Below, piece by piece: positions 10,204 through 27,266 of a stretch of 39,568 bases of DNA. The DNA comes from a virus. A program made the translations under genes and the position numbers. Position 1 is the stretch's first letter. Each line of letters opens with the position of its first letter. Location of the stretch: positions 1-39,568 of IMG/VR virus record IMGVR_UViG_3300021495_000037; one strand, 5' to 3'. The notes under the pieces were generated by a model. That model made no database searches and had not been told where the DNA came from. It saw only the letters and a list, made by a program, of their open reading frames with translations.

Positions 10204-12633
10204 ATGGGACGATGGAAAAAAGCACAAGAAGTTGAACAAGGAGCTTTGCGATTAGGACGATGGCAAAAAGCACAAGGGCTTAAAAAGTCTCCTGATGAAT
10301 TTATGCAAGGTTCTATTGTTCAAAAAATATTTGACCCATTGCTTGCTGGACAATATGCAGTGGCTGGTTTAGGGCGCAAATTATTTGGATTAAAGGATGC
10401 TGGAATTAAAGCAGGAATTAAAAAGCGAGCCTCTTGGATTGATATTGCTCACGAAAAATATCCATACAAACCGACTGAAGATTGGAAATTTAACTTTTTA
10501 CAAGAATTGAAAAGAAATTTGCCTGGAACTGTTGCTGATATTGTTTTAGATCCTTTGTGGATAGCACCTCCAGCTAAAATAGCAAAAATGCTTGGTATTA
10601 CAAAAGGTATAAAATGGGCTGGCAGGACAAAAGCAATTAAGCCAATAAAAGAAACAGCAGGCAAGATGTTTGTTTATCGTTATGGACAACCAAAGGAATA
10701 TGCTCAAATAGCAGAAGAGACAATTAAGCGAATTACAGAAGGCGGGGAAACAGCTTTAGACATTGCCCGACCGATTGGAAAATTATCAGCGGCAAAACAG
10801 CGAAAGGTTGCCGAAGTTATTAAAGGCGGAATTACAACGGATAAGGAAATTAAGGCATTAGCTGAACCAGTAATTGAGACATTTAAAAAACTTGGAAAAG
10901 AAGCGGTTGAAGCGGGACTGCTTGATGAACGAACTTTTGCTAAAAACTTTGGCAAGTATATGCCACGATTATATCGGACAAAAGAGATGCCAGAGGGAGC
11001 AATTAAATTTTTCGGGGATAAAAAGCCAATAAGAATTGATTTATCAAGATTTAAAAAACGCAAAGATATTCCAGAAGATATAAGGGATGCATTAGGAGAA
11101 ATCAAGGAAGCTGGTTATCCTTCTGCGAAAGGCATTGCTCAATTATCGCAAGCGATTGAGCGTGCAAAATTTTTCAATACTGTTGCAAAAAAATACGCTT
11201 CCAAAATTGCCAAAGAGGGATTTGAAAAATTGCCAGAAACAAAAACACTCGGAGAATTATCAAATAAATATGTGCCGAGAGCCATATTTGATGATATTCA
11301 AACAATGATTAGGCGAGCTGGAAAAGGTGAAGAAATTTACCGCAAAGGTTTAGGATTATGGAAATTTGGAAAAGTTATTGCTAATCCCGCAACTCACGGA
11401 CGAAATATGATGAGCAATGTTATTTTAGCTGATATGGGCGGACTTTCACCGATTAGAGTAGATATTTACGGGCAAGCATTGAAAGAATTAAAAACCAAAG
11501 GCAAATATTATAAGGAATTAAAGAAAGTAAGTAATATTTTAAGTGAGACATTTTATTCAAGAGAAATAGGAGATTTGCTTGATGCTTTTCAAAAAACAAA
11601 GGGAACTAATATAATCCAAAAAAGTTTAGGAATGGTTAAACGACTAATGAAAAAAAGCGGGGATTTATATCAAGCAGAGGAACAATGGAGCAAAATGGCA
11701 TTATATATTGCTAAAAGAAAAAAAGGATTATCACCCGAAAAAGCCGCTAAAGAGGCAGAAAAATGGTTGTTTGATTATTCTAAAGTTCCACCGTTAATTG
11801 AACATTTAAGAGGAACACGGGGCGTTTCTATTTTTGCTGGAGCTTACCCATTTTTAACTTTTTCTTATAAAGCAATTCCAAGAATGACAGAAATAGCTTT
11901 AACAAAAACTCCTCGTCTTACAAAGTGGATGAAAATAAAACGAGGAGTGGAGGCAATGTCATCAAAAGAAGAAAGAGAGAGAGAAAAAGCGGTATTGCCC
12001 AAGTATATGAGAGAAGGAATGTATATGAAAATTCCTTTTAAGGATAAATATGGCAGAAGTCAGTATTTGGATTTAAATTATATTTTGCCGTGGGGGGATA
12101 TTGGAGAAGTTGGACATACTCTTTATCCTTCTAATCCAGTTTGGGGATTGATTGCCGACATTAAAAGAAATAAGAGCGCTTTTACTCAACGAGAAATTTG
12201 GAAGCCTGGTTCAACAAAAGAAGAAATGTCTCAAGCAATTGTTGATTATGTAGGAAAAGCAATGTTGCCTCCTTTATTGTTTGGGTATTCTTGGGATAAA
12301 TTTTGGAGTATGGTTAAAAGAACGCCTGATTGGCAGGGTAGAGTTCGTAGTTTTTGGGCAACAATGGCTGATATTATGATTGGATTAAAAACAAGACCGA
12401 TTGATATTGAAGAAGAAAGAAAATGGAGAGAATTTGAAAGAGAACAAGATATTAGAGATATTCAAGCAAGAATACGCTCTACATTAAGGCGGACTGATAT
12501 TGCTGAAGAAGAGAAAAAGAGAATTGAAGCCGACTATCAAAAAAAGCTGGAAGAATTAGGAGGTAAAGTTCCTTATGTTCCAACTTTTATTAAAGAGAAA
12601 AAAAAGAGATGGCGTAAAAGTTCACGGCTTTGA
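10204..12633 (+). CDS. Large phage protein (LPD38-like), probable ejected virion protein
   Basis: This 809-residue basic helical protein begins with a short duplication (MGRWKKAQEVEQG and LGRWQKAQGLKK). Around residue 393 it has NPATHGRNMMSN, and near residue 540 a hydrophobic stretch following FDYSKVPPLIEHLRG. Both are of the type found in phage 'large polyvalent protein' segments that end up inside virions. The C-terminal 100 residues are Arg/Glu-rich helices. It follows the preceding gene by 13 nt and ends convergently with a minus-strand gene (12-nt overlap). I infer a role in DNA ejection or internal core formation. No catalytic motif is visible, and the domain name rests on my recollection of the motif. 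Confidence 0.65.
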   Translation: MGRWKKAQEVEQGALRLGRWQKAQGLKKSPDEFMQGSIVQKIFDPLLAGQYAVAGLGRKLFGLKDAGIKAGIKKRASWIDIAHEKYPYKPTEDWKFNFLQELKRNLPGTVADIVLDPLWIAPPAKIAKMLGITKGIKWAGRTKAIKPIKETAGKMFVYRYGQPKEYAQIAEETIKRITEGGETALDIARPIGKLSAAKQRKVAEVIKGGITTDKEIKALAEPVIETFKKLGKEAVEAGLLDERTFAKNFGKYMPRLYRTKEMPEGAIKFFGDKKPIRIDLSRFKKRKDIPEDIRDALGEIKEAGYPSAKGIAQLSQAIERAKFFNTVAKKYASKIAKEGFEKLPETKTLGELSNKYVPRAIFDDIQTMIRRAGKGEEIYRKGLGLWKFGKVIANPATHGRNMMSNVILADMGGLSPIRVDIYGQALKELKTKGKYYKELKKVSNILSETFYSREIGDLLDAFQKTKGTNIIQKSLGMVKRLMKKSGDLYQAEEQWSKMALYIAKRKKGLSPEKAAKEAEKWLFDYSKVPPLIEHLRGTRGVSIFAGAYPFLTFSYKAIPRMTEIALTKTPRLTKWMKIKRGVEAMSSKEEREREKAVLPKYMREGMYMKIPFKDKYGRSQYLDLNYILPWGDIGEVGHTLYPSNPVWGLIADIKRNKSAFTQREIWKPGSTKEEMSQAIVDYVGKAMLPPLLFGYSWDKFWSMVKRTPDWQGRVRSFWATMADIMIGLKTRPIDIEEERKWREFEREQDIRDIQARIRSTLRRTDIAEEEKKRIEADYQKKLEELGGKVPYVPTFIKEKKKRWRKSSRL

Positions 12634-12810
12634 CCAATATTCCTCCCAAGCATTCCATAAACAACCAAGACCAATTAACATAAGAGGCAAACCAATCAAA
12701 CCACTTGCGAATTGCCCCAACTTTTCTTCCATATCAGGAGTTAGAAATAAAATACTAAGAATAACAATTCCAACTATAGTTTGAAAATAATATATCCAGT
12801 TTTCTTTCAT
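12622..12810 (-). CDS. Two-helix membrane miniprotein, 62 aa
   Basis: The protein (start MKENWIYYFQTIVGIVILSI) has two predicted transmembrane segments, about residues 8-23 and 37-54 (GLIGLPLMLIGLGCLW). An acidic PDMEEK turn lies between them and a short charged tail follows. It is the second gene of the only minus-strand unit in the window. The start has no good Shine-Dalgarno, only an A/T-rich leader. The 3' end overlaps the convergent virion gene by 12 nt. It could be a holin-like or superinfection-exclusion protein, or a partner of the upstream structured RNA; the sequence does not decide. Confidence 0.65.
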   Translation of the reverse strand: MKENWIYYFQTIVGIVILSILFLTPDMEEKLGQFASGLIGLPLMLIGLGCLWNAWEEYWSKP

Positions 12811-12833
12811 AATTTTAAATTAAATAAATTAAA

Positions 12834-12959
12834 TTACGCTCCAAGCATTCCAGCAATAAATACTGCGATAAAGCCATAAATTACTATCATAGCTAAAATA
12901 TCATTCTCCTCATCGTATTTTTTCAACTCATACAAGAATTGTTTGATTGTTTCTTTCAT
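12834..12959 (-). CDS. Single-helix membrane miniprotein, 41 aa
   Basis: Read on the minus strand, ATG at 12959 gives a 20-residue charged N-terminus (MKETIKQFLYELKKYDEEND). A single transmembrane helix follows (ILAMIVIYGFIAVFIAGMLG), and the stop is TAA. It is the first coding sequence after the structured RNA at 12990-13484 and lies 23 nt upstream of the second miniprotein. There is no clear ribosome binding site. Its composition is typical of phage membrane miniproteins, but no family is recognised. Confidence 0.6.
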   Translation of the reverse strand: MKETIKQFLYELKKYDEENDILAMIVIYGFIAVFIAGMLGA

Positions 12960-12989
12960 AATTTATATATTATTTTATATTTTTTTCCA

Positions 12990-13484
12990 TTGTTGGACTT
13001 CTTTTAAAGAGGAGGAAGGTTGCGAAAAATAAATTTTTCGCACAATGACCACCTTTCAATTTCTCTTTAAAAGTAAGTCAAACGATTTATTTATTGTCCT
13101 CTTGTCCAGCAAATCGGACAAATTGTTCACGGATAACCGTGTAAGTGCCCATCGGTTAAAACCGACGGAGAGAGCCGATTAAAATCTCCAACATTGTTCG
13201 GGACTTAAACCTGCGCTCTCATTCCTCTGGTTGACCTTGAGATAAATACATATCTCACCATCTAACTGGACCCTCAAAAGTAAAAAGTAAAAGAAGTCCT
13301 CAAGAAAACTTTTTACTACCGCACAGCACTGCATTGCGTAGGTAGCTCTCCCTGCTTTTACGGAGTCCTACTCCTGTAGGTCAATTCATTCGCAGGGTAA
13401 AAAACTAAAACAGGACCCCCGTTCGGAAAAGTCCTGTTAGAAAGATGTATAAAATCTTTTAAAAGATTCCGAACGGGTAATTGT
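12990..13484 (-). ncRNA. Large structured non-coding RNA candidate (minus strand, ~490 nt)
   Basis: The interval between the minus promoter (13491-13518) and the miniprotein genes has no ORF above about 18 codons but is dense in perfect pairings. In plus coordinates: 13469-13477 with 13418-13426 (9 bp); 13431-13438 with 13409-13416 (8 bp, interleaved with the first); hairpin 13453-13468; 13397-13403 with 13310-13316 (7 bp); 13392-13397 with 13350-13355; 13294-13299 with 13201-13206; 13251-13257 with 13238-13244; 13137-13141 with 13128-13132; 13116-13121 with 13102-13107. An 11-bp stem, 13063-13073 with 13001-13011, encloses a 10-bp hairpin at 13021-13042. The strand is assigned from the promoter. 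Size and complexity resemble phage large ornate RNAs (ROOL/GOLLD classes), but I cannot assign a family. Confidence 0.7.
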
Positions 13485-13490
13485 ATCTAC

Positions 13491-13518
13491 ATTTTATCAA
13501 AATTCAAAATCTTGTCAA
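13491..13518 (-). promoter_or_regulatory. Sigma70-type promoter, minus strand
   Basis: On the minus strand TTGACA (13513-13518) and TAAAAT (13491-13496) are separated by 16 bp. A DnaA-box-like TTATCCACA lies just upstream (13528-13537). Transcription would start near 13484 and read the structured RNA and then the two membrane miniproteins. Confidence 0.75.
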
Positions 13519-13527
13519 GAGGTAAAC

Positions 13528-13537
13528 TGTGGATAAC
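13528..13537 (+). promoter_or_regulatory. DnaA-box-like motif TGTGGATAAC
   Basis: A match to the bacterial DnaA box (TTATCCACA on the other strand). It lies between the minus promoter and the plus-strand start at 13546. Similar boxes flank the promoters at 16379, 18393 and 27209. Confidence 0.6.
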
Positions 13538-13545
13538 TTAAAACT

Positions 13546-13761
13546 ATGAAAAACGAAGTCAATGAAAAACAGAATATCGCTATTGCCGAACTTAAAACAG
13601 AAGTCAAAAATTTGAAAGAAAACTTAAACAAGTTTATGAGCAATGACTTTCACGAGTTGAAAGATGATGTTAAAAAGATAGACGACAAAATTCTATACGG
13701 ATTTTTGGCTATGATAGCGGCTACTCTCATTCTGCAAATTATATTAAAGTTTTTAAAGTAA
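13546..13761 (+). CDS. XhlA-like holin/membrane protein, 71 aa
   Basis: The first 48 residues form a charged helical stalk (AELKTEVKNLKENLNKFMSN, then HELKDDVKKIDDKI). One C-terminal transmembrane helix follows (LYGFLAMIAATLILQIILKF) with a Lys tail. This architecture matches the XhlA/haemolysin-associated family encoded beside phage lysis genes. It heads the small-gene module that includes the M23 peptidase and a second holin-like protein. No Shine-Dalgarno precedes the ATG. A weak promoter-like pair (TTGTCA 13512, TAACTT 13534) lies upstream. Confidence 0.65.
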   Translation: MKNEVNEKQNIAIAELKTEVKNLKENLNKFMSNDFHELKDDVKKIDDKILYGFLAMIAATLILQIILKFLK

Positions 13762-16369: not shown

Positions 16370-16426
16370 GTTATCCACTTGACAAAGTTTTTAAAAGTGA
16401 TAAAATGAGAATGAAATGTGAATAAC
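16370..16426 (+). promoter_or_regulatory. Early promoter with flanking DnaA-box-like motifs
   Basis: TTGACA (16379-16384) and TAAAAT (16401-16406) are 16 bp apart. GTTATCCAC (16370-16378) abuts the -35 element, and TGTGAATAAC (16417-16426) covers the likely start site. The promoter feeds the HTH gene at 16437 with a leader of about 24 nt. Confidence 0.8.
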
Positions 16427-18354: not shown

Positions 18355-18376
18355 TGACGAAGTTCAAACTTGGTTT
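18355..18376 (+). repeat. Single copy of the 21-nt repeat
   Basis: TGACGAAGTTCAAACTTG followed by GTTT, identical in its 18-nt core to the tandem pair at 16325. It lies immediately upstream of a TGTGGATAAC box and the 18393 promoter, repeating the arrangement at 16325-16384. Confidence 0.85.
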
Positions 18377-18440
18377 GTGGATAACTCTCCTCTTGACAAG
18401 GAAAAAAAATAGGAGTATAATGTAGGTAGTTGTGGATAAC
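18376..18440 (+). promoter_or_regulatory. Replication-operon promoter with two DnaA-box-like motifs
   Basis: TTGACA (18393-18398) and TATAAT (18416-18421) are 17 bp apart, a perfect consensus. TGTGGATAAC occurs at 18376-18385 and again at 18431-18440, bracketing the promoter. The second copy lies at the expected start site. Confidence 0.88.
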
Positions 18441-18450
18441 TAATGTAATT

Positions 18451-18537
18451 ATGACGCAATTAAAGACAACACAAAAATTAAAATTATTACCTAAAAAGAG
18501 CAGGTTTGCAATTTGTGTTGTCGCCTGCTCCTTTTAG
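18451..18537 (+). CDS. Possible leader peptide, 28 aa
   Basis: A short ORF (MTQLKTTQKLKLLPKKSRFA and eight more residues, stop TAG) spans exactly the attenuator-like RNA of the replication leader, ending just after its terminator-like stem. There is no Shine-Dalgarno. Translation could control which of the two helices forms, as in classical attenuation. Support is positional, and it may simply be fortuitous. Confidence 0.35.
   Translation: MTQLKTTQKLKLLPKKSRFAICVVACSF
18465..18535 (+). promoter_or_regulatory. Attenuator-like leader RNA with interleaved helices
   Basis: GACAACACAAA (18465-18475) is the perfect complement of TTTGTGTTGTC (18512-18522). GAGCAGG (18498-18504) pairs with CCTGCTC (18524-18530) and is flanked by an A-run and by CTTTTAG, as in an intrinsic terminator. 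The two helices interleave (A-B-A'-B'), so they form either a pseudoknot or exclusive antiterminator and terminator states before the replication genes. Confidence 0.75.
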
Positions 18538-18546
18538 TTAAAAATT

Positions 18547-19296
18547 ATGAATGACATAAAAATAATTTTAAAAGAATTTTCAGAAAAACCAATCGCTTAT
18601 CAGCCGATTTACAGCAAAATAACGGGAAGTATTACGGCAGGAATTCTATTATCTCAGCTTGTTTATTGGTATTTTGCAATGGGTGAAAAGGAATTTTACA
18701 AAACAAATGAGGATTTTTGCAATGAATTGGCAATGGGATTATGGGAATTAAAAGGAGCAAAGAAAAAATTAAAAGAACTAAAGATAATAGAAATGAAAAT
18801 AAAAGGAATTCCTGCTAAAACATATTATAAAATTAACATTAAAAAAATTATTGCACTGATAACTAATTATAGCAAAACCCGCCAACTTGATGGAGGAAAA
18901 CCAACCAACTGGAGGGAGGAAAACCAACCAACTATTACAGAGAATACTACAGAGAATACACATCCTTTATCGGCTAAAGCCGATGAGGAGAATTTCTCCT
19001 TTGATGGATTCCTACAAGAAATGAAAACTAACAAACAAAGGCATATCCAAATTATCCGTCTCTATTGGTTGGCAAAGAAGAGAAGATACGAAAACCGCAA
19101 GCAAGCCGATTCGGCGATAAGAAGGGATTTAAAAGCGGCTTCTGCTTTGGCGGGTTATTCGGATGAACAAATACAAAATACGATGAAATGGTTAAATAAA
19201 AATTTTCAAGGGGGCGTAAAGCGGTGGACACTGGAGACTGTCGGGAAATATATTGACGATTACAAAAATATAAAAGAAAGGAGATTTCTATTATGA
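18547..19296 (+). CDS. Replication initiator/replisome-organiser-like protein
   Basis: Residues 1 to about 115 form a winged-helix domain of the type found in phage replication proteins (GSITAGILLSQLVYWYFAMG, YKTNEDFCNELAMGLWELKG, LKELKIIEMKIKGIPAKTYY). A Lys/Thr-rich linker follows. The C-terminal domain (about residues 145-249, FLQEMKTNKQRHIQIIRLYW to ETVGKYIDDYKN) is helical. The stop overlaps the helicase start (ATGA-type overlap), as expected of an initiator/loader coupled to its helicase. It probably binds the phage origin and recruits the helicase (inference from family and context). Confidence 0.78.
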   Translation: MNDIKIILKEFSEKPIAYQPIYSKITGSITAGILLSQLVYWYFAMGEKEFYKTNEDFCNELAMGLWELKGAKKKLKELKIIEMKIKGIPAKTYYKINIKKIIALITNYSKTRQLDGGKPTNWREENQPTITENTTENTHPLSAKADEENFSFDGFLQEMKTNKQRHIQIIRLYWLAKKRRYENRKQADSAIRRDLKAASALAGYSDEQIQNTMKWLNKNFQGGVKRWTLETVGKYIDDYKNIKERRFLL

Positions 19297-20472: not shown

Positions 20473-21084
20473 ATGAACCTTAAAATTTCTTCACAAACCA
20501 AGGAGGAACTAATAATCTTCTTAATCGTGATAATGGGATTTATCTGGCTTGCGTTGTTGTTGGAGAATGCCTACAATGAGCAAAAATTGGAAGAACTGAA
20601 GGAAGAAAAGATGAAACTGGAGCAGAGGAACGAGGAACTCTTTCAAGAATTAAAGGAAACTATCCATAAGTCGGAGGCTGGCGTTAGTGGTAGTGAGGCG
20701 CTGGCATCCGACTATAAGGATATACCGAAGGACGACAGGGGCGGCACATCTTCATCTGCAGTGGAAATCTCTGCCCCCTCCGCTCCTGTCTCCGACGGGA
20801 TAATCAGGGAAGTAACAATGTATACCTCCCGTCCCGAAGAGACTGACGAAACGCCCTGTATCTCGGCTGACGGGACGAACATCTGCGAGGTTGACTACAA
20901 TGTCTGTGCCACCAATGCCTTCCCGATTGGCACGAGGCTGTATGTAGACAAGCTGGGCGAGTGTGTCGTCAAGGATACGATGTCCCGAAAATATCAGCAA
21001 AGGATAGATTGGTATGCTGGGACGGATGTGGAACGGGCTCTGGCTTTCGGAATTCAACGCTTACTTGTTAGGAAAATAAATTAG
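20473..21084 (+). CDS. Membrane-anchored 3D-domain (RlpA-like) cell-wall protein
   Basis: AAGGAG precedes the ATG. Residues 13-30 are a signal-anchor (LIIFLIVIMGFIWLALLLEN), about 33-65 a coiled coil, and about 70-105 a Ser/Ala-rich linker. Residues about 110-203 form a 3D/double-psi beta-barrel domain (MYTSRPEETDETPCISADGT, NAFPIGTRLYVD, VVKDTMSRKYQQRIDWYAGT). The pattern TxYxSxPxETDxTPxxxAxGT is the signature of the 3D family, which includes muralytic proteins and appears often in Patescibacteria. It may remodel the host wall. The three GGGTGAA-type motifs near its start are not explained. Its place inside the replication unit is unusual. Confidence 0.8.
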   Translation: MNLKISSQTKEELIIFLIVIMGFIWLALLLENAYNEQKLEELKEEKMKLEQRNEELFQELKETIHKSEAGVSGSEALASDYKDIPKDDRGGTSSSAVEISAPSAPVSDGIIREVTMYTSRPEETDETPCISADGTNICEVDYNVCATNAFPIGTRLYVDKLGECVVKDTMSRKYQQRIDWYAGTDVERALAFGIQRLLVRKIN

Positions 21085-21091
21085 AAACCGA

Positions 21092-21165
21092 CCCGCCATA
21101 TACTGAAACGATTGATCTAATGTCAATCTATTCTCGGCTACGGCTGAGATCAGGTGTATGGCGGG
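21092..21165 (+). ncRNA. Three-way-junction RNA element with alternative pairing
   Basis: A 12-bp closing stem pairs CCCGCCATATAC (21092-21103) with GTGTATGGCGGG (21154-21165, one G-U). Inside are hairpin GATTGA/TCAATC (21110-21115, 21123-21128) and a 7-bp hairpin capped by a C(UACG)G tetraloop (21132-21149). TGATCT (21113-21118) can instead pair with AGATCA (21147-21152), which excludes both inner hairpins. It lies just after the 3D-domain gene. Confidence 0.7.
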
Positions 21166-21202
21166 CAAGGGTTAAAAAATTGATTAAATAACCAATAAAA
21201 GA

Positions 21203-21352
21203 TTACTGGTGCTTGCTACTTCTGAGAATTAAGTCTCCAATGCCATAAAGTTGTTACATCTCTGGACTGCGGTCTAACCTACTGGGGCAAGAGATGACGA
21301 CGAGGAGAAGTAATAAAGCAATGTTAAATGGTATGTAGGATTCAGCCAGTAA
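21203..21352 (+). ncRNA. Multi-branched structured RNA element
   Basis: TTACTGG (21203-21209) pairs with CCAGTAA (21346-21352), GCTT (21211-21214) with AAGC (21316-21319) and TACTTCT (21217-21223) with AGAAGTA (21306-21312). Internal hairpins are GAGA/TCTC (21224-21237) and CATCTCT/AGAGATG (21257-21263, 21290-21296). AT-rich linkers on each side share ATAACCAA-TAAAA. There is no ORF of note, so this is probably one RNA with the neighbouring elements. Confidence 0.65.
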
Positions 21353-21423
21353 AAAAATTGGATTAAAATAACCAAATAAAACTAACTAATCTCTATTTAT
21401 GGGATAAAGGAAAATAAAAACTG

Positions 21424-21468
21424 GGCATAGGTAGTTCCTATTAACTTAACGGAGTTTTACTACCCGCC
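21424..21468 (+). ncRNA. Covarying hairpin, copy 1
   Basis: GGC (21424-21426) pairs with GCC (21466-21468) and GGTAGT (21430-21435) with ACTACC (21459-21464). The stem-loop boundary carries AGTTCCTATT (21433-21442). Copy 2 at 21483 has a different stem but keeps pairing and this sequence. A promoter-like TTAACG-17-TTTAAT overlaps the 3' arm. Confidence 0.65.
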
Positions 21469-21482
21469 TTTAATGAATAATA

Positions 21483-21544
21483 TATAGGCAGAGACAGTTC
21501 CTATTTAAACAACTTATTTGTTGCTGATATACTGTCCGCCTATA
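21483..21544 (+). ncRNA. Covarying hairpin, copy 2
   Basis: TATAGGC (21483-21489) pairs with GCCTATA (21538-21544) and GACAGT (21493-21498) with ACTGTC (21531-21536). AGTTCCTATT is at 21496-21505 and a small CAAC/GTTG hairpin lies in the loop. Relative to copy 1 the GGTAGT/ACTACC stem has become GACAGT/ACTGTC, a double compensatory change. Confidence 0.7.
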
Positions 21545-21546
21545 AT
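21518..21546 (+). promoter_or_regulatory. Possible promoter giving a leaderless transcript
   Basis: TTGTTG (21518-21523) and TATAAT (21541-21546) are 17 bp apart. Transcription would begin at or next to the A of ATG 21553, giving a leaderless mRNA. The elements overlap hairpin copy 2, so the two readings compete. Confidence 0.4.
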
Positions 21547-21552
21547 AAAAAT

Positions 21553-23520
21553 ATGAAATCCACAATAAAATTATTTAAAGCACTTCCAATTAAAATAAAA
21601 AGAAGAAAGAAAGCAAGTGAAAACTTGTTAAAAGAGACAATAAAAAGAGGATTTATTTTTGCTCCAGAGGTTGTTTATAATTATTCAGAATCAGAACTTC
21701 TGAAGTTAATTGATTCTGTTGGTATTACAGCAGAGCAGATTAACAACTCTTTTCACAAGTCTTGGCAGAAAATAAAAGAGGCTGATTTAGAGCAATTGGT
21801 AGTGGAACAGTTGGCTCATTATCTTACAACTTATGGAAAAGAGCAGCCCAAAGAGTATTTGATAGAGAAAAAGGAACAATGGGGAGTGGATAATTTAGCT
21901 GAAAAAATTATTACTCTTGGTGATTTTGAGTCAGATAGAATACAAGATGCTGATTATGTTTATATTCCAAAAGAGATACTAGAGATCCCAGAATTTGAAG
22001 GAATAAATTTAATGATTATTAAGGGATATACCAAAAAAGAATTAAAAACGAAATTATTAAATTTACTTCAATTGGGGATTGCTTTAAGTGAAGATACAAT
22101 AAATGATGTGGTGGATACTGCGACATTTGTTGAGTTAAACGAACAGGAAGTAGATAACGTTAAGAATAAAGAAGTTCGAGTAGCTCTTTGCGATTACCTA
22201 AATCTGTTTCCAGAAAACCCTGTGGAGTTTTTGAGATATGTTGTTTATAAGGCAACGAATAAAACTTTACTAATTAAGGATTCGGCTACCATAGAAGAGA
22301 TTAATTCTAAAAAGAATTTAGATATTCTGAATTTATTTATTAAATATAAAGATAAATACGGCTTAAAAAGATTAGCCGAAATATTTTATCGGTTTAAGCC
22401 ACTCTTCTTGGCGTTTAAAACAAATAAGAAATTAAGCTCTTACATCAATAAAATTAGAAAATTAGCGATTAAATATCATAAGCCGTTGCCTGAAGATTAT
22501 CTTAATGAGATTACGGCGAAAATTAAGAAAGGTGAAAAGATAGATGTAAAGAGATTAAAAGATGAATTAAATAAAGTTAATGTTTTTAGAAAGATAAGAT
22601 TGGCTTACGCTCTACAGTTTAGAATTAAAGATGTTGATTCTATCTTATACAGAATAAGAAATGGAAAAGGATATGCTACGGAGTTCAGCTTTAACAAGAA
22701 AAACCAAGCAAGGAGAATTCTGAATATTGTTTTAGGTTCAATAGCAAAAAGTATAAATGTAAAAGGGAAAAAGATTTATATCCCAAAACATATTAACTAC
22801 GCTTTACCAGCAACAGAAAAACAATTCACTGGTTATTTTTCTTCTGGAACTTATGTTTCAATCCCTAAAGATATGATTATTGGAATTTACTGGGAAAACA
22901 CTAATGGTCATAGAGTTGATTTAGATTTGTCTTTACTTTCACCAGATACAGGAAAGATTGGTTGGGACGCTGATTATCGAACAGAAGACAGAGGTATATT
23001 GTTTTCAGGCGATGTAACAGATGCTCCTAAACCTAATGGCGCTACCGAGTTGTTCTATATTAAAAGACAGACCAAGAATGCTCTAATACTTTTTGTTAAT
23101 TACTATAACTTTAATAGCGAGGTAGAAGTCCCGTTTAAGATAATAGTGGCGAAAGAGCAAATGAGTAATTTTAGAAAAAATTATATGGTTAATCCTAATA
23201 ATGTTGTTGCTATTGCTGAGTCTAAAATCAACCAAAAACAGAAGATATTGGGATTGTTAATTACTACAACTAATGAAAGTAGATTTTATTTTGCTGAAAC
23301 ATATCTTGGAGGGTCAATAACATCTACAGATTCAGATTTTGCTGAAAATAGCAGGAAGTATCTCTTTAATTTTTATGAGAATACAATAGGACTTAATAAT
23401 ATTTTACAGAAAGCAGGAGCTAAGATAGTTAATGATAAGGAGGAATGCGATATTGATTTGTCCCCAGAACGATTGGAAAAAGATAGTATATTGAATTTAT
23501 TACAATCAAAACCTAATTAA
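21553..23520 (+). CDS. Large protein with C-terminal TerD-like domain, 655 aa
   Basis: Residues about 440-600 carry a TerD-like stress domain: HRVDLDLSLLSPDTG at about 454, SGDVTDAPKPNGATE at about 485, then NALILFVNYYNFNSEVEVPF. The pair 'DLDLS ... SGDxxxAPxPxGATE' is the signature I know from TerD relatives and the MXAN_6230/SCO0854-type proteins. The N-terminal 400 residues are helical and Lys/Glu-rich (YNYSESELLKLIDSVGITAE, VVEQLAHYLTTYGKEQ), also like those proteins. No signal or membrane segment was seen. The gene follows the structured RNA region and has no Shine-Dalgarno. TerD proteins are linked to stress and phage resistance, so a counter-defence or exclusion role is possible but unproven. 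Confidence 0.72.
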   Translation: MKSTIKLFKALPIKIKRRKKASENLLKETIKRGFIFAPEVVYNYSESELLKLIDSVGITAEQINNSFHKSWQKIKEADLEQLVVEQLAHYLTTYGKEQPKEYLIEKKEQWGVDNLAEKIITLGDFESDRIQDADYVYIPKEILEIPEFEGINLMIIKGYTKKELKTKLLNLLQLGIALSEDTINDVVDTATFVELNEQEVDNVKNKEVRVALCDYLNLFPENPVEFLRYVVYKATNKTLLIKDSATIEEINSKKNLDILNLFIKYKDKYGLKRLAEIFYRFKPLFLAFKTNKKLSSYINKIRKLAIKYHKPLPEDYLNEITAKIKKGEKIDVKRLKDELNKVNVFRKIRLAYALQFRIKDVDSILYRIRNGKGYATEFSFNKKNQARRILNIVLGSIAKSINVKGKKIYIPKHINYALPATEKQFTGYFSSGTYVSIPKDMIIGIYWENTNGHRVDLDLSLLSPDTGKIGWDADYRTEDRGILFSGDVTDAPKPNGATELFYIKRQTKNALILFVNYYNFNSEVEVPFKIIVAKEQMSNFRKNYMVNPNNVVAIAESKINQKQKILGLLITTTNESRFYFAETYLGGSITSTDSDFAENSRKYLFNFYENTIGLNNILQKAGAKIVNDKEECDIDLSPERLEKDSILNLLQSKPN

Positions 23521-27208: not shown

Positions 27209-27266
27209 TTGACAAGGTTTTAGGAATAGTTTAAAATGAAGGTGGTGTGGATAACCTGTGGATAAC
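27209..27266 (+). promoter_or_regulatory. Late promoter with two DnaA-box-like motifs
   Basis: TTGACA (27209-27214) and TAAAAT (27232-27237) are 17 bp apart. TGTGGATAAC occurs twice in tandem just downstream (27246-27255 and 27257-27266), at the expected start site. It drives the terminase/structural operon through a leader of about 135 nt. Confidence 0.85.

Follow-up and report, generated by a model that had tools for sequence, protein, structure and literature searches.

A recurring 5′-terminal pseudoknot leader in phages, heading in one of them a candidate large structured RNA and two membrane miniprotein genes

Structured RNAs placed directly after early promoters are known from the HK022 put-type antiterminator leaders, and the put RNAs keep their sequence. 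The larger RNAs of phages include GOLLD and ROOL, which often lie near tRNAs (PMC12286853). And the mRNA of the TimP toxin, first annotated as non-coding, encodes an inner-membrane toxin whose translation uses a pseudoknot (PMC11228461). Here we analyze a leftward unit in an IMG/VR virus record (IMGVR_UViG_3300021495_000037), the whole of which, 39,568 nucleotides (nt), we call the window. The unit begins with an H-type pseudoknot, continues with a large candidate structured RNA free of open reading frames (ORFs), and ends with two ORFs for small membrane-type proteins of 41 and 62 amino acids (aa). Our firmest claim, in which we have high confidence, is that the 5′ pseudoknot recurs across phages, as judged from their sequences.

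The put RNAs and this leader have in common a structured RNA right after a promoter; they differ in that the stem sequences of the pseudoknot leaders are unrelated between phages, while the topology and a few unpaired bases are kept. Another likeness, by topology only, is to the exoribonuclease-resistant RNAs (xrRNAs) and bacterial 5′ stabilizer hairpins, described here in part after PMC5760640: a compact pseudoknot with low sequence conservation, at the point of 5′ exonuclease entry. The phage-leader stems are longer (8–11 and 7–10 bp), and they occur in bacteriophages, not in RNA viruses. With TimP and RyfA the window shares a pseudoknotted folded RNA ahead of a small membrane-protein ORF, but here the pseudoknot lies at the extreme 5′ end of the RNA and turns up again ahead of unrelated genes (a replication initiator, a YopX-type gene), and no antisense RNA is evident. 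Like OLE, ROOL, GOLLD and raiA, the RNA of the window is long, free of ORFs and rich in helices, some of them interleaved, and it is encoded by a phage, close to lysis genes and a tRNA. It differs from them in having no Rfam match and no conserved family that we could find, in following the promoter of small membrane ORFs, and in being missing at the syntenic place of its relatives. As for OLE with its OapA protein, neither the 41-aa nor the 62-aa ORF matches a Pfam or PHROGs family, so that no adjacent OapA-type protein is recognized. Within the open-access literature, which was the scope of our literature search, we found no description of such a leader.

According to the ORF list, nearly all genes of the window run rightward. 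The leftward unit fills the gap between an 809-aa structural gene, which ends at 12633, and a 71-aa gene, which starts at 13546 (Table 1). On the minus strand it consists of a promoter, an ORF-free stretch that reaches to about 12960, the 41-aa ORF, and the 62-aa ORF. The initial annotation had called it the only leftward unit, and we agree, judging by eye from the ORF list and from family matches and not with a gene finder: the other minus-strand ORFs of at least 60 aa that we inspected overlap plus-strand ORFs, and all family matches are on the plus strand. Further features given there are found as well. The promoter is a good one (11 of 12 positions), the roughly 490 nt behind it have no credible ORF (the longest on the minus strand across about 13487–12960 has 51 aa and is unsupported), and the two ORFs that follow are of membrane type, with one and two transmembrane-like (TM-like) segments. 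Promoter, folding z-scores and ORF layout together confirm, at the level of sequence, that the leftward unit is real and that in it a large structured RNA precedes the membrane miniproteins. Promoter calls are consensus matches throughout, and the contigs compared come from uncultured phages and are often fragments.

The predicted transcript would open with the pseudoknot, which starts 13 nt after the −10 element. Stem S1 (CCCGUUCGGAA/UUCCGAACGGG) has 11 bp, stem S2 (AACAGGAC/GUCCUGUU) has 8 bp, and the loops are L1 of 28 nt, L2 of 2 nt, and L3, which is a single unpaired G at 13417. ACAATTA stands before S1. An interleaved pair of 9 and 8 bp had been proposed here; the pair is real and S2 is as described, but S1 has 11 bp rather than 9. 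A second leader is found in the window on the plus strand, 43 nt past the −10 element of its promoter and ending 16 nt short of where a replication initiation gene has its start codon.

We count as a leader two interleaved Watson–Crick stems, S1 of at least 8 bp and S2 of at least 7 bp, with L2 of at most 8 nt and L3 of at most 2 nt, located 8–22 nt after a −10 element. A structure scan of ORF-poor regions in relatives brought up the leftward unit of G001 (L072, 7538), in which a TTGACA promoter is followed by S1 of 11 bp, a loop, S2 of 9 bp, S1′, G, and S2′. In 0.77 Mb of related virus DNA, at these stem lengths, five pseudoknots lie within 30 nt after a promoter, namely those of the window, G001, G002 (L076, 6903), G032 (L039, 5044) and G009 (L061, 10431), versus none in five block shuffles. 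At the same threshold, 1.19 Mb of mostly proteobacterial terminase loci have no promoter-linked pseudoknot. Further sets add L259 (6846) and, weakly, L175 (11926), which we leave out because its promoter matches at 9 of 12 positions only and it has no junction base. A phage contig in a Patescibacteria metagenome-assembled genome (MAG), L393 (16090), also has the leader. This gives eight cases: two in the window and one each in G001, G002, G032, G009, L259 and L393, the latter six with the pseudoknot 8–18 nt after the −10 element. Another MAG contig, L397 (16739), is not counted because its candidate lies over a Shine-Dalgarno sequence and a coding start, and has a 2-nt junction.

Hairpins with an S1 of at least 8 bp have an S2 partner in 7 of 212 cases when they lie 8–22 nt after a promoter, versus 27 of 4825 otherwise (P = 4e-4). 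For promoters matching at 10 or more of 12 positions, the numbers are 5/42 versus 29/4995 (P = 7e-6). Leaving out the window and G001, which were the source of the motif, the Fisher test gives P = 0.005 for promoters of at least 9 matches and P = 0.0013 for promoters of at least 10. As a control for orientation, the mirrored topology shows no significant enrichment near promoters (4/212 vs. 36/4825, P = 0.09). An S2 partner is present in 0 of the 62 promoter-proximal hairpins of the proteobacterial set, and in none of the 93 that 0.73 Mb of Patescibacteria DNA contain; for this last sample, we reject the pseudoknot as a feature of the host.

The leaders also share unpaired bases. A single unpaired G at the S1′/S2′ junction is present in six of the eight cases, from five records (both leaders of the window, G001, G032, G009 and L393). 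In each of the five promoter-linked cases where the junction is a single base, that base is G, as it is in the second leader of the window. Moreover, YRATTA(AAA) stands immediately before S1 in both window leaders, G001 and G009. When all the DNA compared is scanned for YRATTA, pseudoknot and junction G together, the four matches with 17–20 stem pairs are precisely these four leaders. The best of three shuffles reaches 15 pairs, and the one extra match, of 16 pairs, lacks a promoter and has a loop of 72 nt.

The genes behind the leaders vary: a DnaD-like gene in L393, a YopX-type gene in L061, and small membrane proteins in L039 and in the second ORF of G001. This variety suggests a module tied to transcript starts and not to one particular gene. 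And since topology, promoter spacing and junction base are constrained while the stem letters are free, the job of the pseudoknot is probably a mechanical one at the 5′ end. It would close the end of the RNA, shielding it from 5′-dependent decay, gating early elongation or ribosome access, or both. Alternatively, S2 and the U-rich tract at its end could form an intrinsic terminator close behind the promoter, in an attenuation mechanism where S1/S2 folding chooses between a pseudoknot RNA of about 80 nt and read-through to the large RNA and the miniproteins. S2 followed by TTAGTTTTTT indeed scores as terminator-like (a stem, then a U-run), U-rich stretches after S2 are also present in G002, L278, L061 and the plus-strand leader of the window, and the Patescibacteria record L345 (G218) has, on the minus strand near 1073 and 1183, two tandem promoter–hairpin–T-run units directly upstream of a gene, resembling a double attenuator. 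However, no U-tract follows S2 in G001, L039 and L259, so it is not a defining trait of the group, and S1 and S2 have no bases in common and are thus not alternative helices. In host-phylum DNA, just 3 of 23 promoter-proximal hairpins have a T-run, and we reject a general Patescibacteria rule of that sort. Attenuation is a serious rival to a mechanical 5′-end function, and we consider it quite unlikely.

The folding of the large RNA is far from what is expected by chance. Compared with dinucleotide shuffles, the minimum free energy of 12955–13482 has a z-score of −6.07 on the minus strand and −8.03 on the plus strand; for 12960–13405, which excludes the 5′ pseudoknot, the values are −6.23 and −6.37. 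In both cases 0 of 100 shuffles fold as well. Energy alone is silent on the strand, and it is because of the promoter, the position of the pseudoknot relative to it, and the downstream ORFs that we assign the RNA to the minus strand. One could argue that the inverted repeats act in DNA, or in plus-strand mRNA as a long 3′ untranslated region of the structural gene, given that the plus strand folds just as unusually and that perfect helices are blind to strand. That the pseudoknot comes 13 nt after a minus-strand promoter, and that the same placement recurs in other phages with no such cases in the host-phylum or proteobacterial controls, makes this highly unlikely.

At least ten perfect helices had been reported in this RNA, and we find more than ten. 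A long-range 12-bp helix (13299–13288/13006–12995) interleaves with a 10-bp hairpin (13317–13308/13288–13279), the two having one base in common (13288), and competes with an 11-bp helix (13073–13063/13011–13001). Further hairpins include 13042–13021, 13169–13148, 13141–13128 and 13257–13238. Could this belong to a new class of ornate, free-standing phage RNAs, abundant, self-folding and acting as a scaffold or in a complex in the manner of GOLLD, ROOL or OLE, with the miniproteins as read-through products or partners? Its length of about 530 nt, a z-score of about −6, and its many and interleaved helices would fit, and so would the nearby lysis genes and a phage tRNA gene 2.4 kb away; the unit region itself has no tRNA or tmRNA. 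But Rfam, which includes models for ROOL, GOLLD, OLE and raiA, gives no match to the unit RNA either at gathering or up to E = 10, beyond three implausible sub-threshold matches, of eukaryotic type, on the opposite strand. And no DNA relatives of the large RNA are found in INPHARED, PLSDB, 38 related IMG/VR records, 320 loci (4.1 Mb) or 380 Patescibacteria genomes, whereas the known ornate classes are widely conserved. The matches of the unit DNA to the Patescibacteria genomes are all short, AT-rich or promoter-like. We consider a free-standing RNA unlikely. Kinship with OLE, ROOL, GOLLD or raiA is unsupported. The interpretation in the initial annotation is supported in part, for the leftward unit and the recurring interleaved helices.

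Other candidate homologs of the large RNA were rejected. The exact-core matches in IMG/VR (5 for CCAGAGGAATGAGAGC and 17 for AGGTTTAAGTCCCGA) never extend past the pattern and are attributed to chance, and the RNA behind the G002 pseudoknot has a z-score of −1.1 and no similarity.

Using the 809-aa protein, we found two IMG/VR phages, L003 and L004, with the complete region. In the gap of both, a minus-strand TTGACA promoter adjoins the start of the plus-strand gene and is followed by a leaderless membrane miniprotein, of 33 aa in L003 and 42 aa in L004, whose end overlaps or adjoins the stop of the structural gene. No large RNA is present. The 62-aa ORF is the positional counterpart of these miniproteins. 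What is conserved at this locus is thus a leftward promoter with a membrane miniprotein behind it; between the two the window adds some 500 nt, and the large RNA is specific to its lineage. The arrangement also weakens the analogy with OLE and OapA that had been drawn for this locus. The next genes encode a holin-like coiled-coil/TM protein, an HNH nuclease and an M23 endopeptidase; the L003 counterpart of the 71-aa protein matches a phage “hemolysin” family, phrog_1193 (E = 2e-4, holin-like). With such neighbors, the unit sits in a lysis region.

Two TM ORFs behind a structured leader are also what one would expect of a type I toxin-like unit, in which the leader keeps a small membrane toxin untranslated up to the point where the RNA changes its fold or loses an antisense partner, and TimP is a precedent for pseudoknot-dependent translation of a membrane toxin (PMC11228461). 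However, plus-strand antisense promoters across the unit match at 9 of 12 positions at most (weak sites at 12943 and 13156), the miniproteins match no family, and the miniprotein of the relatives is leaderless and so unguarded. We regard a toxin unit as decidedly unlikely.

The best overall explanation, which we advance tentatively, combines the leftward unit, the pseudoknot leader and a large RNA acting in cis on the miniproteins. The unit would be read as one transcription unit by the host RNA polymerase, and its transcript would open with the pseudoknot, a module reused, both in this phage and in related ones, before different early-type or accessory genes. The folded RNA of about 450 nt would be a lineage-specific long leader that restrains the translation of both miniproteins or sets its timing. 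These would replace the single leaderless miniprotein that the relatives have next to their lysis genes (holin-like and M23 endopeptidase), with a role in lysis or membrane physiology.

Several observations weigh against this explanation. The folding energy is as unusual on the plus strand as on the minus strand. As an orphan, the large RNA has no covariation support for its fold or its role. The pseudoknot statistics come from eight cases, with thresholds set after two of them were known. G002 and L259, which do not have the junction G, could be either looser relatives or chance matches. The second leader of the window is further from its promoter, outside the 8–22 nt range. No homolog of either miniprotein is found among the 320 loci compared, nor of the 62-aa ORF in IMG/VR and INPHARED, and no Shine-Dalgarno sequence precedes either ORF. 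A broader claim would be that phages of Patescibacteria (candidate phyla radiation, CPR) share an undescribed 5′ pseudoknot leader, defined by its topology, a 5′ YRAUUA and the junction G, that serves as a 5′ “cap” or switch and here heads a new large RNA acting with membrane miniproteins at lysis. Taken as a whole, we find that claim rather doubtful.

Table 1. Coordinates of the leftward unit, the second leader, and neighboring features in the window.
Feature	Positions	Strand	Basis or remark
Sigma-70-type promoter, TTGACA-16-TAAAAT	13491..13518	−	11/12 match, TG before −10
Predicted RNA 5′ end GATACAATTA, single-stranded, with YRATTA motif common to other pseudoknot leaders	13478..13487	−	inferred from promoter position
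5′-terminal H-type pseudoknot	13409..13477	−	S1 13477–13467/13428–13418 (11 bp); S2 13438–13431/13416–13409 (8 bp)
U-rich tract TTTTAGTTTTTT at S2 end, terminator-like	13399..13410	−	terminator-type score
Large ORF-free structured RNA, orphan	12960..13405	−	z −6.23; helix probabilities
41-aa ORF, one C-terminal TM-like segment	12834..12959	−	ORF list, TM-like segment prediction
62-aa ORF, two TM-like segments, stop codon within 3′ end of convergent structural gene	12622..12810	−	ORF list
Convergent 809-aa virion structural gene, query for finding relatives	10204..12633	+	phrog_22602, E 7.6e-13
Divergent 71-aa coiled-coil + TM protein	13546..13761	+	L003 positional counterpart matches phrog_1193
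DnaA-box-like 9-mer TTATCCACA, 9 nt upstream of −35 hexamer	13528..13536	−	exact match
Consensus promoter, TTGACA-17-TATAAT, before second leader	18393..18421	+	
Second pseudoknot leader, GCAATTAAA directly before	18465..18530	+	S1 11 bp, S2 7 bp, L3 = G
Replication initiation (O-like/DnaD-like) gene behind second leader	18547..19296	+	phrog_9773, E 3.7e-22

The host is likely a member of the ultra-small Patescibacteria. The nearest terminases in GTDB genomes include one on a Staskawiczbacteria contig (58%), similar TTATCCACA...TTGACAA promoters are present in Patescibacteria genomes, and the leader itself occurs on one MAG phage contig from this phylum. G009, with 58% GC, may have another host. 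The window has five exact DnaA boxes TTATCCACA, versus 0.42 expected: the one upstream of the leftward promoter and those at 18376–18384, 18431–18439, 27246–27254 and 27257–27265. Each of the five has a strong TTGACA promoter no more than 20 nt away, and 0 of 20,000 random placements put all five within 45 nt; near-boxes of DnaA type flank the promoter at 16379. It may be that the host DnaA regulates these box-flanked phage promoters.

Other pseudoknot-like sites and folded regions were observed. Downstream of the terminase, L167 (13942, plus strand) and L175 (11926, plus strand) have a common pseudoknot: S2 is the same in both (CGGAAAG/CTTTCCG), there is no junction base, and S1 shows compensatory changes (AGCTGTTCA/TGAACAGCT vs. 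AGCTGGAC/GTCCAGCT). L308 (2815, plus strand) and L309 (3524, plus strand) have homologous pseudoknot-like sites, possibly at a gene start, where both arms of S2 differ between the two phages (CGGGAA/TTCCCG vs. CGGCAA/TTGCCG). In G001, both ORFs of the leftward unit are preceded by similar TTATAAGG...TTG...CTTTACAATTAANATG (L072, minus strand, 7435 and 7149), a possible non-Shine-Dalgarno translation signal. L056 5775–6552 (G004), ORF-free and adjoining a lysozyme-like gene, has a z-score of about −8 and no Rfam match; it appears to consist of tandem short RNAs on both strands, each with its own promoter and terminator. L064 17672–18046 (G015) has 370 nt free of ORFs, a plus-strand z-score of −8.7, long imperfect helices, and no Rfam match. 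In the window itself, 21054–21582 is ORF-poor and folds unusually (z about −4.6 on the minus strand and −2.9 on the plus strand).

Knowledge of RNA control in phages of the candidate phyla radiation is scant. A leader that keeps its fold while its stem sequence is free is invisible to BLAST and has no Rfam match, and is thus easily missed. Its recurrence with the same fold suggests that these phages share a new RNA control element, one that can be tested for 5′ protection, attenuation or translation gating, and that offers a marker for early or accessory promoters in uncultured phages. The orphan RNA, if confirmed, would add a large structured RNA linked to membrane miniproteins.

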